Below are positions 11,087 through 37,325 of a DNA stretch of 63,393 bases, piece by piece. Source of the DNA: a bacterium (GTDB taxonomy: Bacteria; Planctomycetota; Planctomycetia; Planctomycetales; Planctomycetaceae); NCBI GenBank assembly GCA_016124895.1, contig WGMU01000109.1:1-63393 (forward strand), in the 5' to 3' direction. The position numbers and the translations under genes are program-made. Position 1 is the stretch's first letter, and every line of letters begins with the position of its first letter. The notes beneath the pieces are model-generated. The model was not told where the DNA came from. It was given only the letters and a program-made list of their open reading frames with translations, and did not search any database.

Positions 11087-14000
11087 TTATGGCGTTGTCG
11101 AAAAGGTGCTGACGTCAGGCGTCGCCGGCACGAGTTGTGACTTCTCCTTCTCATCGCCGAACAGCAGGATGATCCCGCCGCTGCCACCGCCCCCAACGTC
11201 TTTGGCGTTGTAGATGAATTCGGCGTTCTGCCGCTTATCGATCTGCTCGATCAGCTTCTCAAGATGCGACAGCGTGTAGGCGTCAATCCTGTCACGGCCC
11301 TTGAGTACCTGCTCGATGCGCTTACGAATCCGGTTCAGCTCGAACGACGCCAGATTCGTGATCGGCTTATCGGCTTCCGTCCGGACGCTGCCCGGCACGC
11401 TGAGATCGATCAGGCGCTGCAGATGCTCTTCCTGCAGGTTACGTCGCAGGCTGGAGACCAGCGGAACACGATCGGTGTACTGCTTGTCGGGCGTCTTTTC
11501 GACTTCCTGCCAGATCGCGTCCGTCAGTGACCGCAGCACTTCCGGCAGCGTCAGAGCATCCTGGTCAGCAGGCACCCGCAGTTCATTGTCGTAGATGCGG
11601 CGCAGCGTCGTCGGGTTCATGATCATCGTCAGCGTTGATGCCTGGATGCCGATGATCTTGTCATGGACCGGCCAGGTCGCTTCGTCGTTGAAGGCCGCGA
11701 ATCCATCTCCGTCGAGCCATTTATCGACCGTCAGGTGAGCCAGCAGTTCGGGGTTCAGGCCGAAGGCGTCATCGAAGAATGTGTTTTCGATGACAAACTT
11801 CAACGCGTCCTTCTGCTGCTGTGCCGGAACGACGATCACGGGTTCTGGAGCGTCTTTGTCCCCCTTCAGCGACCGACTGGTAAACGCTCCACCCAGCCAG
11901 TTGGCCATCATACTGACCGCTCGCGACTGCAGGCTAAGCGTCAGCGTGTAGCCCCAGCGGGCTCGAGCCCAGCTCTCACCATCTTTGACGAAATCGCCAA
12001 CCAGTCGCTGACGCTCATGCTGAATCAGTTCCATCTGATTATTGGCGTAGTCGAGCGGCTCTTTCGTGAAGTCATAACGGCGCGACCTCGGATCCGGTCC
12101 GCCGGTCTCCTCATCAGTGCCGTAAATCAGCTCCGGCTCGTTCACTCGGGCGAGGATCGACTTCAGGTCACTCGACAGCGTGTAACCGTATTCGATCGCC
12201 CATTCGTCATACGGACCGATGCCGATCATCGACCAGTCGCCCTGCTTCTTCGTTTTATCAGCTCGCAGATTGATCGGCAGGTAATCCATGACAGAACCAG
12301 CCAACGGTTTCCTGCCGATGACCTCGTCGCTGTTCATCTCTTCGAACGAATAGATACTCGACGCCTTGAAATTGTGACGCAGGCCGAGCGTGTGGCCGAC
12401 TTCGTGAGCGACCAGTTCGGCGATGAGCGGTCCGATAAACGACTCGGGCATCTCGTCGAGCTTCTGCTCGTCGCTTTTCGGTTTGGCCTTTTCGTCGTCC
12501 TTCTTCTCCTCCTCTTTCTTTTCGTCGTCCTTTTTCTCGTCAGCGTCTTTCTTCTCCTCGTCGTTCTTCTTTTCAACGTCCTTTTTGTCGTCGTCTTCGT
12601 CGTCCTTCTTCTTTTTCTTCTTGTCCTTGTCAGCGTCCAGCAGTGCGAAGTGAATTGCAGCCAGTGCGATGTCGAGTGTCTTGCCCTGAGTCGCCAGGCA
12701 CAGACCGTTGACCTGGCTGGTGCGACCGATCAGGCCGTCATACTCATCGTCGCCCAGAAGCTGCGAATCGACTTTGGCAATCGGATGGCCGGACAGCGGC
12801 AGCATCGACTGGCGCTGAATCTCGCGGGCGATTTCCGGACGACGGGCCGCACTCGCGAGTCGAAGACGAGGATCCCAGCGAGGATTCTCGGCCAGCCAGG
12901 CGAGCGTCTCGGGGCCGAAGCCTTCCATGGCGACGGCTGGAAGAATCTCGTCAAACTGCTGGAAGTAATGTCGAATCCAGCCGTCCGTCAGAATGATGTC
13001 CGCGTCGAGGATCTCACCGGTCATCGGGTTCACGCGGCTGGGACCGATGGCTGTGCCGATGTCGTTATTCAGCCAGCGGATGAAGTTGTACCGGACGTCT
13101 TCCGGATCGAGGCCCATGTTGCGGCCGGTCTGGGCGTCCTGATAATCGACTTCGATCGCGTTCAGAAAACCAACTTTCTCGTACGCTTTGTTCCAGTATT
13201 CGATCCCCTGCGTCACCCAGCGGCGATAACGCACCGGCACGGTGTGTTCGAGAATGAAGGTGATCGGCTTGACCGGCGGGCTGAGCTTCAGCGACGGATC
13301 GCGTTTCTCCAGGTGCCAGCGGTTGATGTAGCGTACGCGGGTTTCCGTGTCTTTGTACTTGCCAAGATCGACGTAACTCGTCGTGAAGTAACCAACGCGG
13401 GCATCGGCTTCACGCGGGCGGAACTTCGGATTCGGATTCAGAACGCTGAACGAGTAATGCAGGGTCTGCACAATACCGCCGCGTGACGTCGGGCCTTCGA
13501 TGGCAACTTCGATGTTTTCAGGGAACGCCTTCGCGGTCGAAATCGAAATCAGGTACGGGCTTGAGAATCGCGTTCCGAAAAACGTCGACGAGTTGTTGAC
13601 GAGAATCGAGGTCAGATCGATGACCGGGCCGCCTGTCGGACCTTTGGTCAGAATCTGCGTGTCAAGAACCAGGCGGTCGGTAAACAGCCGTTTGACGGAC
13701 GCCCTGGATTCCGGGTCGCCATTCGAGCGGACTTCGACGTTCGGCTGCATCATCGCCAGCCGTTTGCCGAACTGCCGCCAGTAGAAGTAGAGGTCGCCTT
13801 CCTGCAGTCCGGCAAACCGGTCGCCGCCAGCCGTCGTCAGGGCGAGAAAGTACTTCTGCGACGCGAAGCTGGCCGGCAGTTCCGCCAGCAGCTTCGGCTC
13901 AGTTTTGTGCTGATAAAGCGTGTACATCGAACGCGCTCCGTCCGATGTCGACACGACTTTGTTGTAGTCAGCCAGAACCTGAGTGTGCGGTGGAAACTCC

Positions 14001-14116
14001 GCACGCGGAGCCGAAGTCGGCGGCGTCGACTGAGCCTGCACGGTGGACACGGGCAGACCGGCCATCATGAGCAGCACTGCGAGGCCGTTGAAGCTGAGGA
14101 ACCACGTTCGCTTCAT
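11087..14116 (-). CDS. Exported zinc metalloprotease of the DUF5117/DUF5118 type with a charged Lys/Glu/Asp insert
   Basis: A 1009-residue protein with a signal peptide (residues 1-28, ending AQA) and an AGGGA box 8 bases before the ATG. The zinc site HEVGHTLGLRH (near residue 567) is the metzincin HExxHxxGxxH form. Flanking segments (YRRWVTQGIEYWNKAYEKVG, GPYDEWAIEYGY) match large bacterial zinc-dependent metalloproteases carrying DUF5117 and DUF4953 regions. Residues about 492-550, just before the zinc site, are an insert made almost only of K, E and D, coded by a nearly pure purine stretch. It probably degrades protein outside the cytoplasm; the substrate is unknown. Confidence 0.88.
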   Translation of the reverse strand: MKRTWFLSFNGLAVLLMMAGLPVSTVQAQSTPPTSAPRAEFPPHTQVLADYNKVVSTSDGARSMYTLYQHKTEPKLLAELPASFASQKYFLALTTAGGDRFAGLQEGDLYFYWRQFGKRLAMMQPNVEVRSNGDPESRASVKRLFTDRLVLDTQILTKGPTGGPVIDLTSILVNNSSTFFGTRFSSPYLISISTAKAFPENIEVAIEGPTSRGGIVQTLHYSFSVLNPNPKFRPREADARVGYFTTSYVDLGKYKDTETRVRYINRWHLEKRDPSLKLSPPVKPITFILEHTVPVRYRRWVTQGIEYWNKAYEKVGFLNAIEVDYQDAQTGRNMGLDPEDVRYNFIRWLNNDIGTAIGPSRVNPMTGEILDADIILTDGWIRHYFQQFDEILPAVAMEGFGPETLAWLAENPRWDPRLRLASAARRPEIAREIQRQSMLPLSGHPIAKVDSQLLGDDEYDGLIGRTSQVNGLCLATQGKTLDIALAAIHFALLDADKDKKKKKKDDEDDDKKDVEKKNDEEKKDADEKKDDEKKEEEKKDDEKAKPKSDEQKLDEMPESFIGPLIAELVAHEVGHTLGLRHNFKASSIYSFEEMNSDEVIGRKPLAGSVMDYLPINLRADKTKKQGDWSMIGIGPYDEWAIEYGYTLSSDLKSILARVNEPELIYGTDEETGGPDPRSRRYDFTKEPLDYANNQMELIQHERQRLVGDFVKDGESWARARWGYTLTLSLQSRAVSMMANWLGGAFTSRSLKGDKDAPEPVIVVPAQQQKDALKFVIENTFFDDAFGLNPELLAHLTVDKWLDGDGFAAFNDEATWPVHDKIIGIQASTLTMIMNPTTLRRIYDNELRVPADQDALTLPEVLRSLTDAIWQEVEKTPDKQYTDRVPLVSSLRRNLQEEHLQRLIDLSVPGSVRTEADKPITNLASFELNRIRKRIEQVLKGRDRIDAYTLSHLEKLIEQIDKRQNAEFIYNAKDVGGGGSGGIILLFGDEKEKSQLVPATPDVSTFSTTP

Positions 14117-14745: not shown

Positions 14746-15228
14746 CTACGGGTTGCGGAAGTCGTCGAGCGGGTCGCTGTTTGTGTCGGGATTGTACTGG
14801 CCTTCGCCTGCCTGGAAGCGGCGATTGTGGAACCAGCCCAGTCGGACTTTCGCCCACCACGGTGAGTAGTCCCAGCCCCAGGTACCCTCGCGGTTATAGA
14901 TGCGAGTGTCGCCGCCTTTGGCCGCACCGCCGCCGACGTAATACCCACCGTACTTACTCTCGTCCTGGCAGACGGCCCACGGAGCGACGAGATGCGGGCA
15001 GCCGGTTCGTGCGAGATGCTCGTCCGTGGTCTTCTCCGTCTCTTCGTATTTCCATTCGTGAATGCCCAGAAAGCTGGTCTGAGGATCGAGGTCGACTCGC
15101 TGCTTGAGCTTTGTGAAGAACTGCTTCAGCTTCGATGGCTGCGGTTCCTCGTCCTGAGCTGATGCAGTCAAAGCAACGCTGAGCAGTAGCAAACTCAGCA
15201 GCAGAGCGAGGCATTTCCGGACGAGCAT
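14746..15228 (-). CDS. Small exported protein of unknown function
   Basis: A 160-residue protein with a clear signal peptide (Leu-rich core ending SALTASA-like, cut before QDEEPQPSK). The mature part is rich in Gly, Tyr and Trp (KYGGYYVGGGAAKGG, WGWDYSPWWAKVRLGWFHN) with two Cys residues. I do not recognise a named family; similar small exported proteins occur in planctomycetes. The ATG at 15228 is preferred to the in-frame GTG at 15237, with AGGGTGG just upstream. It reads in the same direction as the giant protein gene, but a strong terminator separates them, so it is probably transcribed alone. Confidence 0.75.
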   Translation of the reverse strand: MLVRKCLALLLSLLLLSVALTASAQDEEPQPSKLKQFFTKLKQRVDLDPQTSFLGIHEWKYEETEKTTDEHLARTGCPHLVAPWAVCQDESKYGGYYVGGGAAKGGDTRIYNREGTWGWDYSPWWAKVRLGWFHNRRFQAGEGQYNPDTNSDPLDDFRNP

Positions 15229-15283
15229 GGCGACCACCCTGTCTGGCTCGACGCGTAACGGCGACGGCAGACAGCCATCGCGG

Positions 15284-15441: not shown

Positions 15442-18400
15442 TCAACCCAGTGGGTTTCGCAGAAACTTCTGATAGGGCAGGCGAATTCCGTCTACACGGA
15501 CTTCATCGGCTGTGAGCACGGAGCTAGGCGGCAGAAAACTGCCGGCGCCGACAAAGGTTACCACGTCATCCTGATCGACACCGTCGCCCGAGACGCCAAA
15601 GCCGCCGATCAGGTCCTCATTAGTCCCGTAAATCGGCGTACTTCCGGGAAAGAAAACGACGCCGCTTTGATTCTCGAAGTTATTCGGGTCGCGGAAGTTG
15701 CTGCCCGGATTGAACGAGTTGAAGCCGAGTACCGTATCGAAGTCGGTGTACGGAATTGGAGCCGTGGACTCGACGATCTTTGCTGCCGGATCGGCGAATG
15801 AGAGGCTTGGGTCGGCGTCAACGATGTCGTGCAGAATCGAGAAGTTGCCAGGCACCGTGCCGTCCTGCCCTGACGGAAAACGAGGTTCGGACATGAAGCG
15901 GAACGTGCGATTTGTCGCGGCGGTTTCGATGGGGACGACGTTTCCATCCTGCCCGACCAACTGGTCGATCGGTTGCAGGTCCGTGGACGCGTAATAGGCG
16001 GTGTTGCGTGCTTTCGAGACAGCAACCTCAATCGAGAAGACCGTCGCGTCACGCATTCGGTAGAGGCCGAGCACTTCGCCGCTGGCATCCGTTACTGCCA
16101 TGACCATCCGCGTGCGGCTGCCCAGTGGAAGTCGAATCGCGGCGCGAACCTGACCGGCTTCGGCGATCGCCTGCGTGATAATCTGTTCGACTTCGGCAGC
16201 GGTGATGTCCGGGCCAGGCACGCCGTCGAAATCACCGCCGTCATGCGGAGTCACCAGCCAGCCGTGCGGAACGGACTGCCCGTCAATCGTGATATCGCCG
16301 CCCCCGGTCACAATCTGATTGGCGCCGTTGAGGTTGCCGGGGTTCAGCAGGTCAGCGGGATTGAGCCCCTGATCGGCGACGATCTGCGGTGCGCTCAGCA
16401 GCAGTTGCTGAACGCCGAGGATCCCAGCCGTTGGACCAATCACCTGAAGTTGAATACCAACGAGGTCAAGCCGACCGAACGGAATATCAATGTCCGGTAC
16501 GGGATGATTGCCCGGCTTGGCCCCCGCGATCTGAGCGTTCGCCCCATTGCTGCCGCCCGCCGCGACGACGGCGATGAATTCGGATTCAAGAGTTTTCGGA
16601 GCATTCGTCCGCTGCAGTTCCGTCTGTCCCGGCTGGTAGCCCTGCTCGAACAGAGCTGTGCCGTCATCGCCGGGGAAGAAGACGCCAATGCCACCGATGA
16701 TCGTGTCGCCGTTGCCATCCCCGTTCGTGTCTCGATACAGCGGAACTCCGCCGGGCAGCGTTGCGATGCCGCGCGCCTGAGCCGTCGGATCAATGCCCGA
16801 CACATAGCCGTACGACTCCGGAGCGCTGATCCGCAGACTGTCGGCGACGCCGTTCATGTCGGCGTCCGGATTGTCGTTGATGCCGTCGCCATCGGTGTCG
16901 AGAGGCACGTAAGTCGGATCGATATTGAACCGGTTCGCCAGAGTAATGTCGTCAGCGGTCCCTTTAATATGGTCCGGTCCCGGATTCAGCAGGCTGTCGC
17001 GATTGGTCGTTTCGATATCGAACAGGTCGACCGGCGGCGTGTACATGATCTCGGGCGGAAAGTGCCCGCCGACACCGATTGGAGCCACCAGTCCCGGACC
17101 GCGGACCAGCGGATCGGTCGAATTCGGATTGGAGTTCACTTCGCGATAGGTGATCGTGCTCTGACTGATAAACCGGACGAGTCGCGACGTGATCGGAGCG
17201 AAGGTTCCATTGACCGGATCTCCGTTGGCAAAGAATGCCGCAGTCCGCGCCTTCGCGACGGCTCCATCAATTGCAAATACGAGCGTGTTCTCTTCCGCAG
17301 AGCCGGCATCAATCATTCCGTTTCCGTTGCCGGCTGTCGTCGCGTTGGCCGGATTGTCGAAGTTCGAGATAACTCCGTCTTCGACGCGGACGCCGAGAAT
17401 GTTTCCGCCTCGGTCAACGATCGCGATGATGGCGTCATTGCTCGGCGAAACTGTCGTTGCGTAATCGAGGATCTGCGCAACTTCAGCAGCACTCAGTTGC
17501 GGATAACCGGTAATCATGGTGTGCAGCCCGTGAACTGCCGCTACATCGGGCGACTCGCTGGACAGAACCGGGATGTCGTAATTCGCCGCCGCGATTGCAT
17601 AAGAGTCGGGACCGCGCTCGGCGTCGTAAACGCCGTTCATAATGTCGCCGCGAACCGGAACCCCCGCGTCGGTGATCCCCAGTACGTGGCCCATTTCGTG
17701 GCCGACGATCGTTCCGAAGTCAAACGTACCGTCCGGATTTCCATTCCCGGTTGCCGTGTCGAATGTCTCGGTATGGTCAACGAGGATGACCCGCTGAAGC
17801 TGGCTGCTGCCGTCGGGCGAGTTCAGTTCGACGCTACCACCGAGACCGAGCACCTCGCCGGGTGAGCTTTCAAATCCCGCGGCTTCGAGTGCGCCTTTGT
17901 AGATAATCACGACGTCGGAATCGGCGGCCTGAGTGTCGCGTTCAAACTGCAGTTGATCGCCGGTCGCGGCCTGCCAGTTGAGGAAGGCTTCCTCTGCTGC
18001 CGCGCGCTCGGCGGGTGTGATCTCGTTCTGGTAACCAGCGAAGTTACGGAAGTCGTACCGCACAACAACGGGCTCGGCGGTCGACTGCGCGTTCGGGCCA
18101 GCGACCGACTGCGTGGGAAGGGCCTGACTACTCGCCGTCGATTGACTCAGCAGCGTGGCGACGCTTCCGCTGCTCGAAACCGAAGAGACGACAGCGGCGC
18201 TCGCTGCCGATGCACTCGCCGACGTCCCGCTGCCGTTGAGCGAGCCGACCGCGGCTCCCGGCCCTGAACCGGCAGCACCCCCTGACGAACCCGCGACTGA
18301 TGACGCAATCGCTGCAGCGAGATTTGCGATGGCCTGCGCCGTCGGACCGGCTCCTGGTGCGAATGTCAGATCGGCGGCCTGGCTGAGCCCGCGGCCGGAA

Positions 18401-19086
18401 TCCTGCGACTCCAGTGCTTCGCGGAGTTTCCGCAGTGCTTCTTCAGAGTCATTCGTCGGAACGTCTGCGGAATCTGATCGAGTTTCCTCGTCATTATCGC
18501 CGGCGTCTTTTGTGGATGCTGACGTCGTGCTGGTATCCTTTTCGGCTGGGTCAGCATCAGGATTGCCCTGGGCATCGAACTCAGTCGCGTCAACCTCGCT
18601 GGCGAATCCGAGCAGAGCGAATTGCTCAGCCTGTTCAATTGCCCGAGCGACGTCCGATGGTTCGACACTTTCCGCACCCGCGGGCTTCGCATCTGCACCT
18701 GCCGCTGATTCCGAGGCAGTCTCGGCCGCTTCCTGCTGCATCTGCAGCGCGATCGCCAGTCGCTCGGCCTCAGGCAGTGACGGCCCCTCGGGAGAGGTTT
18801 CGCTGAACTGCTGCAGTCGCGTGCGGAGTGCCTCAACACCCGTCTGATATTCCAGGAGAGCCAGTTCGCCCGGTGTGAGTGCCTCAAGCTGCTGAGGCGT
18901 CAGCAGATCGATCGATTCAATCGGCAGCAGGCTTCCGGCCAGCGTGCCTGACTGCGTTGGGACGAGGCTGCCCAGCAGCAGTTTCTGTTCGAGCGGCTCC
19001 GACGGGCCGCCGCGCCTGCGCGTGACACGCCTCAGGACGGTACGTGAACGCACACCGCTGGACTTCGATTCGTTTCGCCAGGTCAC
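15442..19086 (-). CDS. Giant exported protein: metzincin-like domain plus two GlcG/HbpS-like haem-binding domains
   Basis: About 1214 residues. The GTG at 19086 is chosen because GGGAGAG lies just upstream; an open frame continues to 19251 with no box. The N-terminus has basic residues then EPLEQKLLLGS, the LE.KLLL motif common at the start of planctomycete surface proteins. A long Ala/Ser/Glu-rich linker follows. GHEMGHVLGITD (17671-17703) with a later DIMNG Met-turn marks a metzincin-like zinc site whose third ligand would be Asp, as in snapalysins. Two GlcG/HbpS (DUF336) domains follow; the second ends in PIYGTNEDLIGGFGVSGDG, close to the family signature, the first contains PLYRDTNGDGNGDTIIGG with a calcium-type Asp repeat. 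Function unknown; extracellular. Confidence 0.85.
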   Translation of the reverse strand: MTWRNESKSSGVRSRTVLRRVTRRRGGPSEPLEQKLLLGSLVPTQSGTLAGSLLPIESIDLLTPQQLEALTPGELALLEYQTGVEALRTRLQQFSETSPEGPSLPEAERLAIALQMQQEAAETASESAAGADAKPAGAESVEPSDVARAIEQAEQFALLGFASEVDATEFDAQGNPDADPAEKDTSTTSASTKDAGDNDEETRSDSADVPTNDSEEALRKLREALESQDSGRGLSQAADLTFAPGAGPTAQAIANLAAAIASSVAGSSGGAAGSGPGAAVGSLNGSGTSASASAASAAVVSSVSSSGSVATLLSQSTASSQALPTQSVAGPNAQSTAEPVVVRYDFRNFAGYQNEITPAERAAAEEAFLNWQAATGDQLQFERDTQAADSDVVIIYKGALEAAGFESSPGEVLGLGGSVELNSPDGSSQLQRVILVDHTETFDTATGNGNPDGTFDFGTIVGHEMGHVLGITDAGVPVRGDIMNGVYDAERGPDSYAIAAANYDIPVLSSESPDVAAVHGLHTMITGYPQLSAAEVAQILDYATTVSPSNDAIIAIVDRGGNILGVRVEDGVISNFDNPANATTAGNGNGMIDAGSAEENTLVFAIDGAVAKARTAAFFANGDPVNGTFAPITSRLVRFISQSTITYREVNSNPNSTDPLVRGPGLVAPIGVGGHFPPEIMYTPPVDLFDIETTNRDSLLNPGPDHIKGTADDITLANRFNIDPTYVPLDTDGDGINDNPDADMNGVADSLRISAPESYGYVSGIDPTAQARGIATLPGGVPLYRDTNGDGNGDTIIGGIGVFFPGDDGTALFEQGYQPGQTELQRTNAPKTLESEFIAVVAAGGSNGANAQIAGAKPGNHPVPDIDIPFGRLDLVGIQLQVIGPTAGILGVQQLLLSAPQIVADQGLNPADLLNPGNLNGANQIVTGGGDITIDGQSVPHGWLVTPHDGGDFDGVPGPDITAAEVEQIITQAIAEAGQVRAAIRLPLGSRTRMVMAVTDASGEVLGLYRMRDATVFSIEVAVSKARNTAYYASTDLQPIDQLVGQDGNVVPIETAATNRTFRFMSEPRFPSGQDGTVPGNFSILHDIVDADPSLSFADPAAKIVESTAPIPYTDFDTVLGFNSFNPGSNFRDPNNFENQSGVVFFPGSTPIYGTNEDLIGGFGVSGDGVDQDDVVTFVGAGSFLPPSSVLTADEVRVDGIRLPYQKFLRNPLG

Positions 19087-19620: not shown

Positions 19621-20772
19621 ATGAACGGCCAGACGAACAACGAACGACTCTCTGCACTGATCGATGGCGAGCTGGCCGACGAAGAACGCGCCGCTCTGGA
19701 ACAGGAAGTGGCTCTGTCGCCGGAACTCCGGCACGAGCTGGCTGAGCTGCGTCGCGTCTCAGCCGTCGTCAGGGAGCTGCCGCAGATTCCGGCTCCGGCC
19801 AGCCTGCACGGAGCCGTGATGGCTGAAATTCAGCAGCCTGTTCACCTCGGTAATGACCGCCCGGCCGGCTCGGGACGCGCCGGCGGTCGACCGGGAATGT
19901 CGCGGTTGCTCGGTCTGTCCGCCGCAGTCGCCGTCGCAATCGGAGCTGCTGTCTGGTTCAGTCAGAAAAACGACAGTCAGATTGCCGGGAATGGCGGCGG
20001 CGCTCCGGAAATCATCTCCGTGCAACAGGGGCGCCGGGAAGCCGTGGCAAACCGGTCCGAGTTGCGCGGCTCGCCGGCTGAATCCACAGAGTCGGTCACA
20101 GGCAGCCGGGATATCACAGGTGGCCGGGGCACAGTCAATGTCGAGACGCGACATCGCGTTCTGCAGATTTCCCGTGACGACCTGACGTCCGCACGCGTGG
20201 GCGACATCGTCGAGGCCGTTGACGCAAACGGCGACGCTGTCGGCGTGATTCGCCTGACCGTCGTCGATCGTAAACTCGGGGTTGAAGCCTTGCAGGTCCT
20301 GCTGACCGCACAGCAGTTTGAAACTGTCAACGGTAGCGAAACCGAGCCCAACGCCGATCAGAGCAGTCTGGTCGCTGTGTATGTGGAGTCAGATCGTGAG
20401 AAACTCTCGCAGGCGATCAGCGAATTCCGACGTCAGCTCGATTTCGGTTCGCTGGAAGTTGCCTCGCCAGTCAGCGTCGCCGCACTTGAACCGGAAACCC
20501 GCAACGAACTGGGAATTGATAGACTGCCCGACTCAGCCACCGCGACCCCGTCGCAACGGACCGTCGCTCTGAAACCTGGCAGCCAGCTCGACCGACTGGT
20601 TCAGTCCGACGTAGCCACTGCAGATGGCGACAAATCGGCAACCGGCGCTGCCGATGTTCCGAAAGTCGTCCGCAGCTCGGACAAGCCCGTGCGAGTCATC
20701 TTTGTTGTCGTTGACGGCCCGGCCACCGGCGCGAAGATCAAAGCCGCTCCGAAAGAGAACGACGCTGCCTGA
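19621..20772 (+). CDS. Anti-sigma-factor-like transmembrane protein
   Basis: A 383-residue single-pass membrane protein. Residues 1-55 (LSALIDGELADEERAALE, then a helical segment ending RELPQIPAP) match the cytoplasmic sigma-binding domain of RseA/zinc-finger anti-sigma factors, but the HxxxCxxC zinc motif is absent. A membrane segment lies at about 95-113 and the rest should be outside. It contains an Arg/Val-rich region (VLQISRDDLTSARVGDIV) of unknown fold. No ECF sigma factor is adjacent, unlike most anti-sigma genes. An AGGACAGGACG sequence precedes the ATG. A strong terminator follows, so the gene is monocistronic. Confidence 0.75.
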   Translation: MNGQTNNERLSALIDGELADEERAALEQEVALSPELRHELAELRRVSAVVRELPQIPAPASLHGAVMAEIQQPVHLGNDRPAGSGRAGGRPGMSRLLGLSAAVAVAIGAAVWFSQKNDSQIAGNGGGAPEIISVQQGRREAVANRSELRGSPAESTESVTGSRDITGGRGTVNVETRHRVLQISRDDLTSARVGDIVEAVDANGDAVGVIRLTVVDRKLGVEALQVLLTAQQFETVNGSETEPNADQSSLVAVYVESDREKLSQAISEFRRQLDFGSLEVASPVSVAALEPETRNELGIDRLPDSATATPSQRTVALKPGSQLDRLVQSDVATADGDKSATGAADVPKVVRSSDKPVRVIFVVVDGPATGAKIKAAPKENDAA

Positions 20773-27592: not shown

Positions 27593-30500
27593 TCACACGT
27601 CGCTGCTGGCTGGCGTCTGTTCAACCTGCAGCGCGTTGATCAGCCTTTGCAGCAGGACCTGATCGAGCGGGTGCAGTAGTGACGCGTTGAACCCGGTCGC
27701 CTGGGCCTGCGTCAACGTCGCGCGGGCGGCCTCCGGATTGCGATCATCGAGCTGAGCAGCGGCCAGGTGCAGCAGCAGAGTTGACGTGGCCTGGCCATTC
27801 GCCATTGCCTGCTGCAGATCGGCAATGGCCTGTCGCGTCCGGTGCTGCCCCAGCAGGATACAGGCACGCGTATCGAGAAGTTGCGGCGTGAGACCTGCCG
27901 TTTGCATTGCCCGCTCGATCAGCGTCAGCGCGTCGTCTGCGTCGCGCCGCTGCATTCCGAGCAGCCAGGCGAGGTTGTTCAGCGCCGGCAGATTCTGCAT
28001 GTCGACGTGCAACACCTGGCGGTAGAGCGATTCCGCCTCCGCATAACGCTCCTGCAGCGATCGCAAATCCGCGAGGCAGACTTTGATCAGCAGCGCCTGC
28101 GGCCGCTGTTTGAGTGCGGTCGTCAGCTTCTCGTCGACGCGCGCCATCCGAGCGTGCGTCGGCCCGGTTGAGAGCATCGCCAGCGAGAGTCCCGCTGCCG
28201 CTTCCGGGTCGAGCTGCTGCCAGACTTCGTCAAGCTGTTCGAACGCTTCCACATCGCGGCCGTGATTCAACTGCCAGGCGACGAGTTGCCCCACCTGTCG
28301 CGGGTCAAGCTTCACCGCTTCGGTCAGAAATGCGAGCGCGGCAGCATCGAGGTCTGTATTCGAATCGCCGTTGGAACCAGCGGCACAGGCAACAGCCGCG
28401 GCTTCTGTCAGCCGCGCGACTTTCTGTTCCTGATCACTGGCCGCAGCGACAAACGACGTCAGCAGAGTAACGGCCTGCGTCGTCTCGCGATATTTGACCG
28501 CCAGTCGCGTTTCGAGCCGCAGCGCTGTGGCAGCTTCTGGAAACCGCGAGCGCAGCCGCTTCAGTCCACGTTCGGCTGTGTCGCGGTCAGCGTGTTCGAC
28601 GAGATGCTCGACATAGTCGGACAGCAGTCGTTCGCTGACCTCGCCGTTCTGCAACGAGCGTTCAAGCTGAGCCGTCGCTTCATCGAGTCGGCCAATGGAC
28701 TCATACAGCTTTCCCAGCAGCCAGCGGTCACGTGGCAGCAGTTGATTCTGATCGTCCAGCGTTTCGAACAACAGGATCGCCTGCGCCCGTTCGTCAGCCA
28801 GCAACGAGGACGCAAGCACTGCGGCGCGAATGCGCAGATCTTCAACAGCGGGCTGAGGTGTCGCTGTTGTATTTTCGTCGAGCAACTCCAGCGCCCGCTG
28901 CCGGGACGCGTAGTCATTGTGGCCGTTGAGCAGCAGAGCAAGACGCCGCCGTGCTGACTGGCCGATCGTCGTTGTCGCGTCCGCATCACCCACCAGCCGT
29001 TCGAGCAGTGTTTCCGCGTGAGACGACAATCCGTTCTGCAGATACACGCTCGCCAATCCGTCGAGTGCTTTCAGATCGGCAGCTTCGTTCGCCGCTTCCC
29101 GCTGAAACAGTTCCGCGGCTCGCGCATGATCGCCGAACAGCGCGTAGGCCTGAGCCAGCTCCGTCACGCTCATTTTCTGCGCGTGCCTGCGGAACAGTGC
29201 CAGCGCTTCGTCCTGTCGTCCAGCTCGCACATAAAGTTCCATCAGTGTGCGCGCGGTTGCCGCATCGCCAGGCGACAGATCGAGCGCCTGCTGCAATTGC
29301 GATTCCGCCTGCCGGGAATTGCCGGCCGCTGCAAGCGCCTGGCCCATCCACAATGCAGCGTGTTGCCGATCGCCTGCCTGCTGAGCCAGCCGCGCCAGCG
29401 CGACGAGAAACTCAAGTCGATCTGCCTGGCTGGTCCGCGCCTCGATCAGCAACTGCTCAGCAGCGGCAATGCGTCCCTGCGACGCCAGCAGCTCAGCCTG
29501 CAACAGCGCGACCTGAGTCGGATCGGCTCCGTGCTTCGTCGCCTCAGTCAGCAGTGTCTCCGCCTCACGCCACTCGCGAGCGACTTCCGGCAACTGCAGG
29601 TTCTGTAGAATCAGCAGCCGGGCCAGCAGCAATCGCACCTGAGGCAGCGACGCCAGCGGTCTGTACTCGGCAATTGCCGCCTGCAGTTTCTTCTGCCGCA
29701 ACAGCGACGATGCCAGCGCCAGCCGGCCAGGGACCGACTTCGGGTGATACTTCATGACCTGTCGCAGCGTCACGAGTTCCTGATCGGTCTCGCCCAGCTC
29801 GCGATGACAGGTGGCAATGGCGATGTCAGTCCGTTCGAGCATTTCCGGCGTGTCGGCCTGAAAACGTCGTGCCTCGTTGAACAGACTGAGCGCCTGCCGC
29901 CACTGTTTTTGAGCCATCGCGATGCGGCCGTCGAGAAACAGGCGCAGCGCATCTGATCCCGGTGTTCGAGGCAACCGGTTGATGGCTTCGTGCGCCTTGT
30001 CGAACTCACCTCGTTCGATGGTCAGATCAGCAAGCAGCACGTGCGCCCGATGGTCACCTGGATGATCACTCAACAATTCCGCGAGCCGCTGCAGCGCCTG
30101 CTGCTGATCACCAAAATGCGATTCGATCACAATTGCCTGCAGCCTGAGATCAAGCCTGTCCGGCGCGAGTTCCATCGCCCGCTTGAGCTGATTGCGGACG
30201 AGATGCAGCAGACGTTCCGCTTTCGGCGCCTGCCCTCGTGATCGAGCTGCCGCAATCCGTTCATACCCGAGTTCTGTGGCCGCGAGAAGCAGGTCGCCAT
30301 TCTCACCGTCACGATCAAGTGCCTGCTGCAGATCGTCTGCTGCGGCGTCAAGTTTTCCGATACGTTGCCGAAACTTTGCACGAGCCAGCCACGCGGCCGG
30401 ATCGTTCGCGTTCAGTTCGACCAGACGATCCAGCAGCGCAGCAGCCTGCTCGGCCTCGTCCAGCATGTCGAGACGCAGGTTGGCCAGCGCGGCCCAGGCA

Positions 30501-31636
30501 TCAATCAGTCGGGGCGAAAAGTCAATGGCCTGCTCGAACGACTCGCCCGCCTGCTCGTACTCTCCCATCTGTTGCTGACAGAGCCCGGCCTGTAACGCGA
30601 GCTTCCCATCCGTCGAATAAATCTGCTGCAGCGTCTGGACATGGCTGAGAGCATCCGAGTATCGACCGATCGCCGTTGCCGTTGCGATCTGTCGACGCCG
30701 AATGTCTTCGCGTGTCGGGTCGGCACGCAGCACGTCTTCGTAAATCGCAAAGATCTGCCGCTGCGCTCCCGGCCCCTCCGCTGATTCGTCGAGCAGAATG
30801 CCCAGCGTTGCCAGCGCGTTCGTATCGTTGGGAACCATCCCGACATAGCGATTGAAATAGTCACGGGCTTTAGTGAAGTCGCCGTCTTCGCGGGCTCGTT
30901 CCCCAAGCTCGATCAGCGTGCCGGCGTTTCTTCGCATCTGCCAGCCGTGAATCGCGACGACCGACGAGAAGAAGACTCCGCCCGCGGCAAGTAGAATGGC
31001 CACGAACCGGTAGTTGATCATCCGCGGACGGATTTCGGCCGCCTCTTCCGATGTAATCTGACTCCGCGTCAGGCCCGCCGGATGTTCCCTGCTGGTCAAT
31101 GATGAGTCTGCTGTCTTCATACTTCCTCCCAATCGTCTTTCCCGCAACTGCCGCTGAGGCATTGCGGTCGTCAGTCCGGCCGGATCCCTCGTCGATTGCT
31201 GCACATGTCGCAGCAGCAGACCGATGCTGAACCCGACTGACACACCGGCCAGATCTGCGACAAAGTCAGCGCCGTCGACCGTCCGCCCTGGAACGAAATG
31301 CTGCAGCAGTTCAGTCGAGACCGCGTGAACTGCGGCAACCGCCCCCGCCAGATAAGTCGCCTTTCGCGAGCGTGACACCGCCCACCACATCAGGCAGACA
31401 GTCAGCGTCAGGTAACCGCAGACGTGATACAGCTTGTCAGAAACGCCGTGCTCCAGAACCCGGGCCGCATCGCCGCGCAACCAGCGGACGAACCACCAGG
31501 GATCGGTCGACAGCAGCGCGTACGAGAGTCCCAGCGTAGCGCATATGGCAATCGCCAGACGGACTCGCGCCGGCGCGCAGCGTTCGCTGCACACCGCCGA
31601 GAGAACTCGTCGCAGAACGCCCGGCAGAAGACTCAC
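27593..31636 (-). CDS. VanZ-like membrane domain fused to a long TPR protein (PrsT-like), last gene of the exosortase operon
   Basis: One unbroken frame of 1347 residues. Residues 1-150 are a VanZ-like membrane domain (SDKLYHVCGYLTLTV, DGADFVADLAGVSVGF, about four membrane helices). A membrane helix at about 205-228 (FVAILLAAGGVFFSSVVAI) is followed by more than 1000 residues of TPR helices. Long TPR proteins (PrsT) and VanZ-like proteins are known as separate parts of PEP-CTERM/exosortase loci. The GTG start at 31636 overlaps the sulfotransferase stop (GTGA) with AAGGAG 8 bases upstream. An internal ATG at 31120 (residue 173) also has a perfect box, so a separate TPR protein may be made. It may scaffold polymer export. 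Confidence 0.88.
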   Translation of the reverse strand: MSLLPGVLRRVLSAVCSERCAPARVRLAIAICATLGLSYALLSTDPWWFVRWLRGDAARVLEHGVSDKLYHVCGYLTLTVCLMWWAVSRSRKATYLAGAVAAVHAVSTELLQHFVPGRTVDGADFVADLAGVSVGFSIGLLLRHVQQSTRDPAGLTTAMPQRQLRERRLGGSMKTADSSLTSREHPAGLTRSQITSEEAAEIRPRMINYRFVAILLAAGGVFFSSVVAIHGWQMRRNAGTLIELGERAREDGDFTKARDYFNRYVGMVPNDTNALATLGILLDESAEGPGAQRQIFAIYEDVLRADPTREDIRRRQIATATAIGRYSDALSHVQTLQQIYSTDGKLALQAGLCQQQMGEYEQAGESFEQAIDFSPRLIDAWAALANLRLDMLDEAEQAAALLDRLVELNANDPAAWLARAKFRQRIGKLDAAADDLQQALDRDGENGDLLLAATELGYERIAAARSRGQAPKAERLLHLVRNQLKRAMELAPDRLDLRLQAIVIESHFGDQQQALQRLAELLSDHPGDHRAHVLLADLTIERGEFDKAHEAINRLPRTPGSDALRLFLDGRIAMAQKQWRQALSLFNEARRFQADTPEMLERTDIAIATCHRELGETDQELVTLRQVMKYHPKSVPGRLALASSLLRQKKLQAAIAEYRPLASLPQVRLLLARLLILQNLQLPEVAREWREAETLLTEATKHGADPTQVALLQAELLASQGRIAAAEQLLIEARTSQADRLEFLVALARLAQQAGDRQHAALWMGQALAAAGNSRQAESQLQQALDLSPGDAATARTLMELYVRAGRQDEALALFRRHAQKMSVTELAQAYALFGDHARAAELFQREAANEAADLKALDGLASVYLQNGLSSHAETLLERLVGDADATTTIGQSARRRLALLLNGHNDYASRQRALELLDENTTATPQPAVEDLRIRAAVLASSLLADERAQAILLFETLDDQNQLLPRDRWLLGKLYESIGRLDEATAQLERSLQNGEVSERLLSDYVEHLVEHADRDTAERGLKRLRSRFPEAATALRLETRLAVKYRETTQAVTLLTSFVAAASDQEQKVARLTEAAAVACAAGSNGDSNTDLDAAALAFLTEAVKLDPRQVGQLVAWQLNHGRDVEAFEQLDEVWQQLDPEAAAGLSLAMLSTGPTHARMARVDEKLTTALKQRPQALLIKVCLADLRSLQERYAEAESLYRQVLHVDMQNLPALNNLAWLLGMQRRDADDALTLIERAMQTAGLTPQLLDTRACILLGQHRTRQAIADLQQAMANGQATSTLLLHLAAAQLDDRNPEAARATLTQAQATGFNASLLHPLDQVLLQRLINALQVEQTPASSDV
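31118..31131 (-). promoter_or_regulatory. Internal ribosome-binding site and ATG inside the VanZ-TPR frame
   Basis: On the minus strand GGGAGGA stands 4-5 bases before ATG at 31120. It is in frame at residue 173, between the VanZ part and the TPR part's own membrane helix. This is as good a start as any in the operon and could yield a free TPR protein of about 1175 residues. Confidence 0.6.
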
Positions 31637-32760
31637 GAAATGAACTCCTTCCGGTCAGACGCGGTGCGGACAACCTCGCGACTGTCGCTTGATCCAGCCC
31701 CGCCAGTGGCGCTGAAAAACTCCGCGAGCACCGTTTCGCAGTGCGTTTCGTGAGCCTGGAACCAGCTTTCGTCGGCGTAGGTTTTCCACTTGTCGAACGG
31801 CGGTGGCGTAATCAGCGGCAGCAGGGGCTCAATGTGCCGCAGGTCGATTTCGCAGAGCTGAAATAACTGGAACAGCGACTGTTCCGGACGCGTCGTCAGC
31901 TCTTCAAAACTCAATGACAGGTCGCACCAGGTCCGGCCGTAAACATACGACAGCTTCCACAGGAAGTAGTGCAACTGATACGGATGCTCGATTGATCGTT
32001 CGTCGAGAAACGGAAAGTGGTACTTGAGATCGCGTGCCCAGCGACAGAGGTAAAAACCATCGACGTCCGGGAAGTCCACCATGTGTCCGTCGATGGGAAA
32101 TCGATCCGGCCGACCGAGCATTGAGCACCATTGATCGCGCGGGTGCCGGTAAAGGTGAATCAGTTTCGCGTTCGGATAATTCTTTCGTGCCCACGGCAGG
32201 CGAAAGTCGAGCCGGTTGAACTGCAGCACCGGACGTCCGCTTGCGTGCTCGATCAGCCCGTCGATATACGCCCGCATTTCCGGCTGCCACTCGTCTTCGG
32301 ACAGATAGAAATTCTGTTCGTTCCACTCGTCACGAAAGACCTGCCCCAGTGCTTCGAGGCCGTCGAACTCGCGCCAGTAATCGTCGACCTGACGGTGCGT
32401 CGCATCGACCCGGTCTCCGCGCATGTGCGGGTCAAACCAGCGCCGTTCGTTGAACGGTTCGTAATACGACGTCATGCCGGGAACGTTGCGAAACAGATTC
32501 CACGTCAGCGTTGATCCGCTGCGAAAGCGGGCCGAAATCAGCACGATGTCCGATCGTTCGTTCGTCGCTGGACCGCGCGACGCAGTGCCAAGACTCGGGT
32601 ATGGCGTCTCGGTCAGCAGAGCCGAATGGAAATCCCGCGGCGCAGTACGCAGCAATCCGCGCAGCGCGTTCGCGGCGGCCTGCCGCCCGTCGTCCGTCGC
32701 CGCAGCACGCCGCAGCGTCGCGAAGAACAAGTTTCGAAGTCTGACTCTCAGTGCTTTCAT
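31633..32760 (-). CDS. Sulfotransferase-family protein
   Basis: A 375-residue enzyme that should transfer sulfate from PAPS to a sugar or other acceptor. The 5'-phosphosulfate loop is ARFRSGSTLTWN near residue 83 and the 3'-phosphate region is LIHLYRHPRDQW further on. The fold resembles bacterial members of the Sulfotransfer families. It sits within the exosortase operon: 75 bases after the O-antigen-ligase-like gene and overlapping the VanZ-TPR start by four bases, which implies tight coupling. The likely acceptor is therefore the exopolysaccharide made by this locus; this is inference. There is no membrane segment, so it should act in the cytoplasm on a precursor. Confidence 0.88.
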   Translation of the reverse strand: MKALRVRLRNLFFATLRRAAATDDGRQAAANALRGLLRTAPRDFHSALLTETPYPSLGTASRGPATNERSDIVLISARFRSGSTLTWNLFRNVPGMTSYYEPFNERRWFDPHMRGDRVDATHRQVDDYWREFDGLEALGQVFRDEWNEQNFYLSEDEWQPEMRAYIDGLIEHASGRPVLQFNRLDFRLPWARKNYPNAKLIHLYRHPRDQWCSMLGRPDRFPIDGHMVDFPDVDGFYLCRWARDLKYHFPFLDERSIEHPYQLHYFLWKLSYVYGRTWCDLSLSFEELTTRPEQSLFQLFQLCEIDLRHIEPLLPLITPPPFDKWKTYADESWFQAHETHCETVLAEFFSATGGAGSSDSREVVRTASDRKEFIS

Positions 32761-32835
32761 TCCACGTGGTTTCCTGTGGTCGTTCCGAATGGTTGAGTTT
32801 CAGCCGATCCAGCGTCCGTCGTCGTCAGACAGCAC

Positions 32836-34146
32836 TTACACAGCAGCAACAGCCGGAGGTATTCCTGCGAAGTCAAATCGCTCGCGTTCAAAATCCGGCG
32901 AGTGGTCACGTTCGACGTTCCGGATCGATGACAGTTTCAACGCACCACAGCCCAGCAGCGCGGTGTAGTACGGAATCTCCAGCGCTTCGAGGCTCACAAA
33001 CTGAGCCGACACGGCAAAGCCGCAGAGTCCGACCAGCGCCATGCGGGCCACATACCGACACCATTCGTCCTCAACAGAGACGCTGTTCCAGGTCAGCAGC
33101 CACAGCCGGAAAATGCACAGCAGATAAAACCCGAGGTAGAGAAACAGGCCGGGAAAGCCGAGTTCCGCCAGGGTCTGCACCCACAGCGAGTGCGCCTCTT
33201 TGCCGGCCTTCCATCCATAGCGAGGTGCCAGAACCGGCCAGTGATTCGGCCCGCAACCCATCACGGGATCCTGCATCGTGACGTCCCAGCAGTCCTTCCA
33301 CAGATCGATGCGACTTTGCGCCGAAGCTTCGCGCTCACCACCCTCCTTGACGAACGTCGTCATGAATCGTTCGCGCACTTCGGGACCGGCAAGCACGGCG
33401 GCCGACACCGCAGCCGCAAGCATGAAGGCATACATTTTCGGCGTGCGCGGAATGACAAAGACGGTCGCCATGCCGGCAACCAGTGCCCCGAGCATTCCGC
33501 CGCGACTGAACGAGAACAGAATGCAGTGCCCCATCAGCAGGCAGAAGAACATCGCCAGACCGCGCTGCCACAGCTTCTCGGAGTGCAGGCTCAGAAAGAA
33601 CGCGACGCCGATCCCGGTCACCATTCCGATCGCCGCGCTGTTGTTGTCCATATCCGCAAAGCCGTCGAACCGCAGCACGTTGTAGCCCGAGAAGTAATAC
33701 GAATTCAGTTCGTAGGCGACGTATCCCTGCGACGCGACGATCGTCCAGGCGAGCTGCTGCAGTTGCCTGCGATCATTGATGCAGCACAGCCCAATCATGA
33801 ACGGAATGACGATCTTGGCCAGCCGTTCGACATAGTCCCAGGCCAGAAACTGATTCGGCGGAAAATACGCCTCGAAGTACGACCAGCCGAGAAAGGCCAG
33901 CAGCAGGGCAGCGACGGAAAAGCTGCGTCCGAGATTGAACCGCGCGGACTTCGTAAACACGAATCCGGCCAGCATCGCCAGCGCGAGGATCAGGCTGTAA
34001 CGTCCTGGCGGCACAGACCAGGGCCACATCGCTTCTGGTCGCACAATGGCGAACGAGACGTAGCACAGCAGTCCGTAAAACGGATTGATCAGTGCGGCCA
34101 GTGAACCACCGACCGTCGTGCCAAACGTGAAGAGCAATCCCTTCAT
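32836..34146 (-). CDS. O-antigen ligase / exosortase-system polymerase-like membrane protein
   Basis: A 436-residue membrane protein with about ten to twelve hydrophobic helices. A large loop after the eighth contains QSRIDLWKDCWDVTMQDPVMGCGPNHW and HSLWVQTLAELGFPG, the Wzy_C (O-antigen ligase/polymerase) signature with its conserved His. It resembles the putative O-glycosylation ligases linked to exosortase A (TIGR03097-type). It should polymerise or ligate sugar repeat units at the outer face of the inner membrane. The ATG overlaps the upstream glycosyltransferase stop by four bases (ATGA). Transfer of a glycan to protein rather than polymerisation is an alternative. Confidence 0.9.
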   Translation of the reverse strand: MKGLLFTFGTTVGGSLAALINPFYGLLCYVSFAIVRPEAMWPWSVPPGRYSLILALAMLAGFVFTKSARFNLGRSFSVAALLLAFLGWSYFEAYFPPNQFLAWDYVERLAKIVIPFMIGLCCINDRRQLQQLAWTIVASQGYVAYELNSYYFSGYNVLRFDGFADMDNNSAAIGMVTGIGVAFFLSLHSEKLWQRGLAMFFCLLMGHCILFSFSRGGMLGALVAGMATVFVIPRTPKMYAFMLAAAVSAAVLAGPEVRERFMTTFVKEGGEREASAQSRIDLWKDCWDVTMQDPVMGCGPNHWPVLAPRYGWKAGKEAHSLWVQTLAELGFPGLFLYLGFYLLCIFRLWLLTWNSVSVEDEWCRYVARMALVGLCGFAVSAQFVSLEALEIPYYTALLGCGALKLSSIRNVERDHSPDFERERFDFAGIPPAVAAV

Positions 34147-35414
34147 GCGCTGGTTTCCGGTGAGGTGACAGGTTCAATGGTGACTGGACAGGGCGGGTCG
34201 ACTGCTGTGGTGGGTCCGGCGAAATCGTTCAGCCCCAGAAAACTCATCAGCGGAGTCAGGCACTGATCCCAGCGATGATGTGCGGTGACGTATGCCTGAC
34301 CGGCCAGTCCGATGTCGTCACGCAGCGACGCGTCGTCGAGCAGTCGCAGCATCTTCGCGATCCACTCGTCGCGCTGCGTTGCCTGGAACAGGTGCGTTCC
34401 GTCCTGAACGTTGAGTCCAGCCAGCGGTGCCGGCGAGGCAACGACTGCGCGCGCCATCGCCAGCGCTTCGAGCACTTTATTCTGCACGCCGCGAGCAATC
34501 TGCAGCGGTACGACGGCAACCGCTGCGGCGTTCAACCACGGACGAACGTCCGGCACAGTTCCCGGCACGCTGACGCCAGGCAGTTCAGCGAGTTCGCGCA
34601 CTGTTGCTATGGGTTCGCGGCCCACGATGTTCAGTGTTGCATCTGGCCTCTGCGAGTGAATCGCCGGCCAGAGTTCGCGCGCGAACCAGACGATGCCGTC
34701 GATGTTCGGCTTGTAATCCAGCGCTCCGACAAAGACGCAACCACGCTCCGCGGCGCGGTCGATCTGAGGAGTGAAGTAGTCGACGTCGACGCCGTTCGGA
34801 ATCGCTTCGATCGGACTGTCGGGGCGGAACGCTCGATACAGTCTGGCTTCCGGTTCGCTGACGAAGGTCAGGCCGGCGCACCAGTCGGACAATGACGCTT
34901 CGAGCTCCCGGAGTCGGCGACCTTCGATGCCGAACAGTGTCCGTTTCAGAAACCGCGACGCTGCTGAGTACTCAAGCCATTTCTCGCTGTCGACGTCGAT
35001 CAGATCCACGTAACGTCGTGCCTGCGCGAGGCTCGACGCCTGGAGATACGGAGCCAGCGCCGACGACGAGCACAGCGCCGCGTCGAACGACGCTTCAGAG
35101 GCCCATTCGTCAACGACTGTCTTCAACGCCGGAGACTCAAACGCGCCCGCGGAGATCGTTCGCCCTCTCAGCAGACTGACTCCGGCCCGCAGCCAGCGGC
35201 CGCAGCGTTCCACCGGAACGATTGCCACGCGGGCGCACAGTCGATTGAGAACGTCGCGCGTCTCGTCGGTGACGGGCTCGTCTGCCAGGCAGCCCAGCCA
35301 GACGTTCGTTCGCGCCGCCAGATGCTCCAGGAAATGGAACGTCCGGATCCGGTCTCCACGATTAGGCGGGTGCGGAACGCGATGCGTCAGAAACAGCAGC
35401 GTCGGTTTGGTCAC
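34143..35414 (-). CDS. Glycosyltransferase, PEP-CTERM/XrtA-associated type (TIGR03087-like)
   Basis: A 423-residue GT-B glycosyltransferase, probably adding a sugar to a lipid-linked repeat unit in the cytoplasm. LLFLTHRVPHPPNRGDRIRT at the N-terminus is typical of the family TIGR03087 that occurs only with exosortase A loci. IPNGVDVDYF and a C-terminal donor-binding region (PLQIARGVQNKVLEALAMA with the usual E) are group 1 motifs. The start is GTG with GAGG 7 bases upstream. The gene overlaps the ligase-like gene by four bases and follows the deacetylase by 74 bases. Confidence 0.93.
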   Translation of the reverse strand: MTKPTLLFLTHRVPHPPNRGDRIRTFHFLEHLAARTNVWLGCLADEPVTDETRDVLNRLCARVAIVPVERCGRWLRAGVSLLRGRTISAGAFESPALKTVVDEWASEASFDAALCSSSALAPYLQASSLAQARRYVDLIDVDSEKWLEYSAASRFLKRTLFGIEGRRLRELEASLSDWCAGLTFVSEPEARLYRAFRPDSPIEAIPNGVDVDYFTPQIDRAAERGCVFVGALDYKPNIDGIVWFARELWPAIHSQRPDATLNIVGREPIATVRELAELPGVSVPGTVPDVRPWLNAAAVAVVPLQIARGVQNKVLEALAMARAVVASPAPLAGLNVQDGTHLFQATQRDEWIAKMLRLLDDASLRDDIGLAGQAYVTAHHRWDQCLTPLMSFLGLNDFAGPTTAVDPPCPVTIEPVTSPETSA

Positions 35415-35488
35415 CGGAGACCTCGGTCGATGGTCCGTGAAATGTCCCGTCGTCCGGGAGTTTCACCGACTGGCGTTCCCGGTCTGCA

Positions 35489-36436: not shown

Positions 36437-36495
36437 TCGTTACGACCGGGAGTGAGTTCGCCGCGCCGCCATCCACGACAGGAACAGCGGACTTA

Positions 36496-37209: not shown

Positions 37210-37325
37210 CAGAAAGCTCACCCAGGGATAACGTTGGAATTCGGAACGCGGAAATCGGAGACGGGGTGTCAAAGCAACAGACTGCTGTTTCTGACCTCCG
37301 CGTTGCAACTTCCGACTTCGTCAAT

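Follow-up and report, generated by a model that had tools for sequence, protein, structure and literature searches.

Putative porin-cytochrome clusters of the PCC4 type (He et al. 2017) consist of a porin, cytochromes with 4, 5 and 10 haems and an inner-membrane protein, to which Subgroup II adds a PF13247 Fe-S gene; their hosts include Planctomycetes and Alphaproteobacteria, the inner-membrane protein of PCC3 and PCC4 carries two WX3HX13H motifs and SGxxG, and the set was proposed to serve extracellular electron transfer (PMC5566968). EfgA, the formaldehyde sensor of Methylorubrum extorquens, is a small cytoplasmic tetramer that acts on translation and contacts formaldehyde derivatives via K57, S114 and D121, with R42 nearby (PMC8153426). 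Here we describe a planctomycete protein that is related to EfgA in one of its domains and whose homologues accompany genes of the PCC4 kind. It is encoded on the minus strand, at 15442-19086, of a 63,393-nucleotide stretch (the window; contig WGMU01000109.1, positions 1 to 63,393, assembly GCA_016124895.1, Planctomycetaceae), and a metzincin-like protease domain and two GlcG/HbpS domains (GlcG1 and GlcG2, together the GlcG core) are recognized in its 1214 amino acids. We report a new association, that of the tandem-GlcG core with an AlgE-like porin and a decahaem LVIVD cytochrome. From sequences and structural models we think it probable, with appreciable room for doubt, that the protein is exported and serves, by binding a ligand, as an accessory of a conduit of porin and multihaem cytochromes of the PCC4 type, to which a protease has been added; we are much less confident of any particular GlcG2 ligand or protease target.

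Neighbouring genes were clustered for the best 80 of 291 relatives of the protein, and all those with titles that name a group are planctomycetes. Cluster members overlapping the GlcG gene were removed before neighbours were counted, and a minority of the clusters, those of the porin, the cytochromes, a small protein, a membrane cytochrome b and an anti-sigma gene, were annotated. Three neighbours recur: the porin, a cytochrome and the small protein. The porin (barrel) gene, mostly encoding 630-1060 amino acids and mostly upstream and opposite in direction, is present in 33 of the 57 loci with at least 3 kb of upstream sequence. The cytochrome (1300-1500 amino acids, 9-10 CxxCH motifs and LVIVD repeats that indicate a propeller) mostly lies past the barrel gene and occurs in 31 of the 45 loci whose upstream sequence reaches 6.5 kb or more. 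The cytochrome of the window genome shares 57-62% identity with the copies aligned to it; searched against known structures, the cytochrome profile retrieved nitrite reductases only, at E 0.55-0.6.

The same three genes co-occur across genomes. Among 170 genomes of the same family, the GlcG core was detected in 53, the porin in 56 and the cytochrome in 58, with core and porin together in 50 and core and cytochrome together in 50; naive Fisher tests that treat the 170 genomes as independent, ignoring relatedness, give p = 1.8e-32 for core and porin and 1.0e-30 for core and cytochrome. For these counts, five genomes with metzincin-only or weak matches (G068, G122, G129, G164, G169) were kept out of the GlcG tally, and of 78 genomes positive for the cytochrome, 20 were excluded for weak, mostly LVIVD-only matches. 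Across 347 genomes of the class, the core was found in 122, the cytochrome in 123 and both in 116 (p = 5e-75, genomes again treated as independent). The porin is present in 38 of 392 genomes of the phylum, 34 of them outside the class. We compared 32 of these 34 porin-selected loci (L208-L239, several of them clipped by contig ends; G580 and G616 left out), and a cytochrome match was found in 32/32 and a GlcG core in 22/32. The cytochrome match of L224 is about 7 kb from the porin and clipped by the end of the locus, and the GlcG match of L235 is partial (3e-9).

The association extends to sphingomonads. A search of a plasmid collection with the window protein returned 6 records, all from sphingomonads, and tandem GlcG genes are found on Sphingobium and Sphingopyxis plasmids, with the cytochrome close by in 13/13 such records. 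Three plasmid regions that we inspected have the order tetrahaem cytochrome, GlcG, porin and decahaem cytochrome in one direction. In Sphingobium herbicidovorans MH the four genes are consecutive (GlcG gene, WP_037469310.1). When two sphingomonad regions were compared with the planctomycete locus L092, the porins were 38-40% and the cytochromes 41-44% identical. The opposite strand in S. herbicidovorans encodes a decahaem cytochrome, a cNMP/4Fe-4S protein and a protein that resembles cytochrome b561 and has two WX3HX13H motifs and SGxxG; the PF13247 score in Sphingobium is 43.9 bits, above the cut-off of 26.2. The starts of the sphingomonad GlcG proteins look like lipoprotein signals.

The complement of genes around the core resembles that of PCC4. 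Two WX3HX13H motifs were found in 17 open reading frames (ORFs) of the compared loci, one of them from Sphingobium, and the fullest locus brings the following genes together within 16 kb:

L101:1638-17247: in order, two-motif membrane protein, cytochromes with 10, 4 and 5 CxxCH motifs, porin, tandem GlcG, decahaem-propeller cytochrome and small gene

A second locus (L102) has the porin, GlcG, the membrane protein and three cytochromes, and the decahaem-propeller cytochrome was not found in the stretch examined. In the window genome, contig C54 encodes a cNMP/4Fe-4S protein (744 amino acids), a membrane protein with two WX3HX13H motifs (692 amino acids) and cytochromes with 10, 4 and 5 CxxCH motifs, and contig C28 encodes the porin and the decahaem-propeller cytochrome, apart from the GlcG gene. 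PF13247 scores 23.7 bits on the C54 protein, below its cut-off of 26.2, and other Fer4 models score above theirs. The porin, the 4-, 5- and 10-haem cytochromes, the protein with two WX3HX13H motifs and the PF13247-type Fe-S protein are thus shared with PCC4 as described (PMC5566968); unlike PCC4, the set of the window genome is spread over three contigs and includes two more components, the decahaem-propeller cytochrome and the tandem GlcG. We assign the set to PCC4 tentatively, by its described gene complement. The main text of that study mentions neither GlcG nor LVIVD nor a beta-propeller, and its section 16 names no haem-binding GlcG protein (PMC5566968). Titles and the first parts of abstracts, among which subscription journals are thinly covered, likewise yielded no GlcG protein in such a cluster, and passages on Thioclava and Idiomarina dealt with other genes.

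The barrel bears on how such a conduit could work. The model of the L101 homologue has 18 long strands and a disordered N-terminus, and the alginate exporter AlgE ranks first among its PDB matches (3rbh, E 7.5e-17), with chitoporin and OprD-type channels also similar. In the MtrAB/PioAB conduit, a sheath of the MtrB type with 28 transmembrane regions surrounds a decahaem cytochrome (PMC5566968), whereas the barrel here is modelled with 18 strands; from this count and the match to AlgE we rejected a sheath barrel of the MtrB or MtrAB-PioAB type. The likeness to AlgE, chitoporin and OprD-type channels would also suit uptake of a substrate: an organic compound would pass through the barrel, be oxidized or reduced by the cytochromes in the periplasm and be bound, as such or as its aldehyde product, by GlcG2, much as EfgA binds formaldehyde derivatives through the conserved residues (PMC8153426). 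We regard this as unlikely, since the cytochrome b-like inner-membrane protein and three more multihaem cytochromes make up the set for which extracellular electron transfer was proposed (PMC5566968).

Several observations weigh against an accessory of an electron conduit. An 18-strand, AlgE-like barrel is narrower than MtrB, which argues against an MtrAB-like wire inside it; the pLDDT of the barrel model is a modest 64, and the low-confidence stretch 496-540 could conceal strands. Cultured genera that carry the set include aerobic heterotrophs. The linkage is incomplete in both directions: a core without a detected cytochrome occurs in 3 of 53 genomes of the family (G079 and G117 among them lack the porin as well) and 6 of 122 of the class, a cytochrome without the core in 8 of 58 and 7 of 123, and no core was found at 10 of the 32 porin loci outside the class, some of which are clipped by contig ends. 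In the lineage of the window itself, the GlcG gene is gone from the porin-cytochrome locus, the set is spread over three contigs, and the upstream neighbour of the GlcG gene is an anti-sigma-like gene. Most loci lack the protease domain (54 of the 80 named loci, a few of them cut at a contig edge), and in the literature covered we found no experiment on any member of this GlcG branch. A tight tie to one cytochrome and one barrel in two phyla would suit an assembly factor equally well, with a GlcG pair that helps the decahaem cytochrome or the barrel to mature (by handling haem, aiding folding or guarding against carbonyl stress) and a metzincin that trims one of these partners. We consider such a factor quite unlikely because pocket residues kept in 80/80 sequences (see below) point to a small ligand over a protein client.

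The features of the protein are as follows (all on the minus strand):

15442..19086: whole ORF of 1214 amino acids, with an N-terminal export and low-complexity region, metzincin, GlcG1 and GlcG2 (from the open frame, Pfam and the model)
18070..19086: residues 1-339, a basic start, LEQKLLLGS and then a Ser/Ala/Glu-rich low-complexity linker
18967-18993: the LEQKLLLGS motif, within residues 1-339
17566..18069: residues 340-507, matrixin-like metzincin domain (PF00413; fold match to MMP-11)
17668..17700: zinc motif HEMGHVLGITD, residues 463-473, with Asp473 as third ligand (His, Glu, His in 27/27 rows; Asp in 26/27, Glu in 1/27)
17638..17640: Met-turn Met483 in GDIMNG (DIMN), Met in 26/27 rows
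16555..17502: residues 529-844, GlcG1 (Pfam stretches, motifs and strands of the model)
15505..16215: residues 958-1194, GlcG2 (PF03928; fold matches to EfgA 6bws and PduOC 5cx7)
16057-16059: Arg1010 of GlcG2, equivalent to EfgA R42
16012-16014: Lys1025 of GlcG2, equivalent to EfgA K57
15565..15597: GlcG2 ligand loop GVSGDGVDQDD, with Ser1166 and Asp1173, equivalent to EfgA S114 and D121

A longer alternative start of the ORF is possible at position 19251. The LEQKLLLGS motif resembles what we take to be the LEPR-type export tag of planctomycetes, and from the sequence we infer export to the periplasm or the cell surface. Antisense ORFs at 15973-17865 and, farther off, at 11663-13486 (both plus strand) were read as shadows of the coding strand.

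The initial annotation had proposed a metzincin-like domain joined to two GlcG/HbpS domains in one chain, and domain searches and structure prediction agree on this layout. PF03928 (HbpS-like/GlcG) matches in two stretches (1.6e-14, 54.5 bits against a cut-off of 25), and Matrixin PF00413 matches at 1.3e-5 (25.5 bits, barely over its cut-off of 24). AlphaFold was run on residues 340-1214 together with 79 relatives; the model, numbered so that its residue 1 is residue 340 of the protein, has a pLDDT of 89.6 and a pTM of 0.87. It covers the whole region (residues 400-1214) for which a prediction had been suggested, and both a metzincin fold and a GlcG fold are present. Aligned with VIA-align, model residues 1-168 match the catalytic domain of MMP-11 (Z 14.3, root-mean-square deviation 2.4 A, 143 residues), and model residues 619-855 match EfgA (6bws; Z 14.8, root-mean-square deviation 1.9, 140 aligned) and the haem-bearing PduOC (5cx7; Z 14.3). 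The fold-search match thus concerns the GlcG2 segment, and GlcG1 is assigned from the Pfam stretches, motifs and strands of the same model. The predicted chain of metzincin, GlcG1 and GlcG2 is confirmed on these grounds, and the same domain order, surveyed in other planctomycetes, was found in 26 further loci.

EfgA (6bws, 6c0z) is the best match of GlcG2 in both sequence and fold, and the two share their ligand residues; EfgA differs in being small and cytoplasmic (PMC8153426), while the domain of the window protein is predicted to be exported and is doubled and fused to a protease. Residues of EfgA were mapped to GlcG2 by a phmmer alignment with an inferred 20-residue tag offset, and the four residues fit in kind and spacing. 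In the modelled segment, Lys1025, Ser1166, Asp1173 and Arg1010 are K686, S827, D834 and R671, and each is present in 80/80 sequences. At the position of EfgA Ser114, GlcG1 has Phe464 (segment numbering) in 80/80, in a loop that reads GVFFPG; the lysine at the K57 position (Lys273, segment numbering) is found in 70/80, and GlcG1 holds a long conserved insert, GPGFVAPIGxGGHFPP...VDLFxIExTNRD. A pattern was applied to 23 homologues of sphingomonads or of genomes beyond the class; the GlcG2 loop could be read in 21, all G-x-SGDG, with the EfgA-type Asp replaced by Asn in L225; the GlcG1 loop was readable in 16, with Ser in one (L221). Judged by these alignments, GlcG2 keeps the residues of an EfgA-type carbonyl pocket, and the putative pocket loop of GlcG1 is replaced.

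Release, binding or sensing of haem had been suggested in the initial annotation, and a haem protein would be one in which haem is freed by the metzincin and then bound, degraded or sensed by the GlcG pair, in the manner of HbpS. In favour of this, PF03928 takes its name from HbpS, HbpS and PduOC both bind haem (PMC3754957, PMC4923194), and the neighbouring genes encode multihaem cytochromes. These binders of haem or cobalamin belong to the same Pfam family as the window protein, PduOC matches in fold and HbpS is extracellular (PMC3754957, PMC4923194); they differ in gene context and in a haem His that GlcG2 does not conserve in its first helix. The haem ligand of PduOC is His18, in the first helix (PMC4923194), and over segment positions 610-655 of GlcG2, His occurs in at most 3 of 80 rows of any column. 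HbpS has its haem site at Thr113, a residue other than that of PduOC (PMC3754957), so haem-binding modes other than PduOC's may still apply. The haem of the neighbours would be covalent c-type (CxxCH), and the protease is missing from most homologues; haem-uptake genes may still lie among the neighbour clusters beyond those annotated. We found no residues in GlcG2 that support haem handling, the EfgA pocket being kept instead, and rejected it as the main role; a haem protein of the kind outlined above is, in our judgement, very unlikely.

The metzincin domain had been described as a zinc site (HEMGHVLGITD with a DIMN turn) whose third ligand would be Asp, the arrangement of snapalysin. The site itself is borne out. 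We extracted 51 same-family proteins, including that of the window (L042, a split gene, and several further matches were left out; L009, L029 and L030 are truncated at a contig edge), and the motif is present in 30, with Asp as third ligand in 29, Glu in 1 and His in none. When these 30 are aligned, HExGHxxG shows no variation, and 28 retain the Met of the Met-turn, the other two having Leu. The likeness to snapalysin holds for the Asp and not for the family. Snapalysin (M7) shares the Asp ligand in HExxHxxGxxD and a Met about ten residues behind it, and Asp-ligand zincins are a recognized class (PMC3890501). With E values up to 1 allowed, PF02031 (Peptidase_M7) found no match in the window protein, and a Peptidase_M7 search of its own genome gave zero matches, with the search's control equally silent. 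In a metzincin-only alignment of 27 rows (the window and 26 loci), in which identity to the window domain falls to 27%, PF00413 matches 27/27 within an E limit of 1 (the window row at 3e-7, the best at 1.6e-12), and Peptidase_M7 matches 15/27, more weakly (best 2.7e-5). Matrixins top a PDB profile search (MMP-20, 2.1e-8), and snapalysin 1c7k ranks below them (6e-6) with an overlap of 37 positions only. Membership of the snapalysin family was rejected on these results and on the matrixin fold of the model; by its profiles and predicted fold, the domain is a matrixin.

Matrixins (M10; MMP-11, karilysin) share the fold, PF00413, HExxHxxG and the Met-turn with the window protein; they have His as third ligand, whereas the window protein has Asp and, in addition, the GlcG fusion. 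Matching domains in other same-family bacterial proteins end the motif with His in 9 of the 14 loci examined, and the third ligand therefore probably changed from His to Asp within the matrixin fold. Of the remaining five loci, L194 has Asp, in a motif identical to that of the GlcG-fused L060, and four lack a complete motif. Seven of the nine His-ending loci sit in frames of about 1900-4700 amino acids. Frames of this length with at least one matrixin-like domain occur in L184, L185, L186, L188, L190, L195 and L196, and a pattern search found no full zinc motif in some copies within such very long proteins.

The protease is restricted to part of the planctomycete branch. A quick tree, made from 80 rows of the GlcG core, places the 27 metzincin rows without exception in one set of 30 (SH-aLRT 96), and the presence of the metzincin requires 4 changes on the tree, whose root was not inferred. 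The three other rows of the set are L078 and L097, which begin at a contig edge, and L115, which has a Ser-rich linker. Elsewhere, by eye, the metzincin slot holds RTX-like repeats (L033), NGQHYL-type repeats (L031) or Ser-rich linkers (L041, L043), and the metzincin profile matched none of the 32 porin-selected loci outside the class at E 1e-5. The simplest reading suggests that the metzincin was gained once, in one planctomycete clade, and lost a few times. The 54 of 80 loci that lack it mean that the protease cannot be central to the system. A probable single gain and absence from most relatives would also fit an inactive structural leftover, as would the Glu third ligand in one row and the change of the Met-turn Met to Leu in two of 30; we think this improbable, because a HExGHxxG motif that is invariant in 27 rows whose identity falls as low as 27% is unlike a decaying enzyme. 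Two further variants of the gene were seen. In L054 (1192-6039), a tandem GlcG is joined at the far end to a subtilase-like stretch, recognized by eye, a second protease type on the core; porin and cytochrome were undetected in the genome concerned (G117). In L042 and L109 (G078), an in-frame stop between GlcG1 and GlcG2 splits the tandem GlcG gene.

Other genes of the window are listed here:

14746..15237, minus strand: small exported protein of 163 amino acids, directly downstream of the GlcG gene, with the motifs YYVGGGA, EGTWGWDY and HGRRxQGGxGQY
19621-20772, plus strand: divergent anti-sigma-factor-like gene (RseA_N; zf-HC2 weak)
11087-14116, minus strand: second metzincin gene, two genes downstream of the GlcG protein and of another family (DUF4953 and DUF5117), its product with a long Lys/Asp/Glu run in the middle
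27593-39605, minus strand: polysaccharide-type genes for a TPR protein, a sulfotransferase, an O-antigen ligase, a glycosyltransferase and a ParA-like ATPase

The small protein is present in 44 of the 72 loci that extend 700 bases or more downstream and has no Pfam or NCBIfam match at E up to 1. Relatives of the anti-sigma-like gene lie upstream of GlcG in L073, L074, L077 and L093, and porin and cytochrome were not found in those loci.

In the arrangement that we favour, that of an exported accessory to a PCC4-type conduit, electrons would travel through the conduit from the quinone pool to the cell surface or back. GlcG2 may bind a small oxygenated or carbonyl compound (an electron donor, a shuttle or a toxic product) near the barrel or the cytochrome, with GlcG1 as the structural half of a GlcG pseudodimer, and the Asp-ligand metzincin, probably gained once, could process its own chain or a nearby surface component. 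A more specific version, in which the GlcG pair would be a dedicated subunit of a widespread conduit that GlcG2 tunes or feeds, and the matrixin fusion would couple ligand binding to proteolysis at the cell surface, is rather unlikely to hold in full.

PF03928 proteins are common and mostly unexplained, and a large branch of them now has a firm genomic context in two phyla. The tandem GlcG would be an added, conserved component of PCC4, a candidate electron conduit with no tested function that we found in the literature covered. In the planctomycete clade that carries it, the protease fusion looks like a natural switch of a zinc ligand, from His to Asp, in a matrixin fold.

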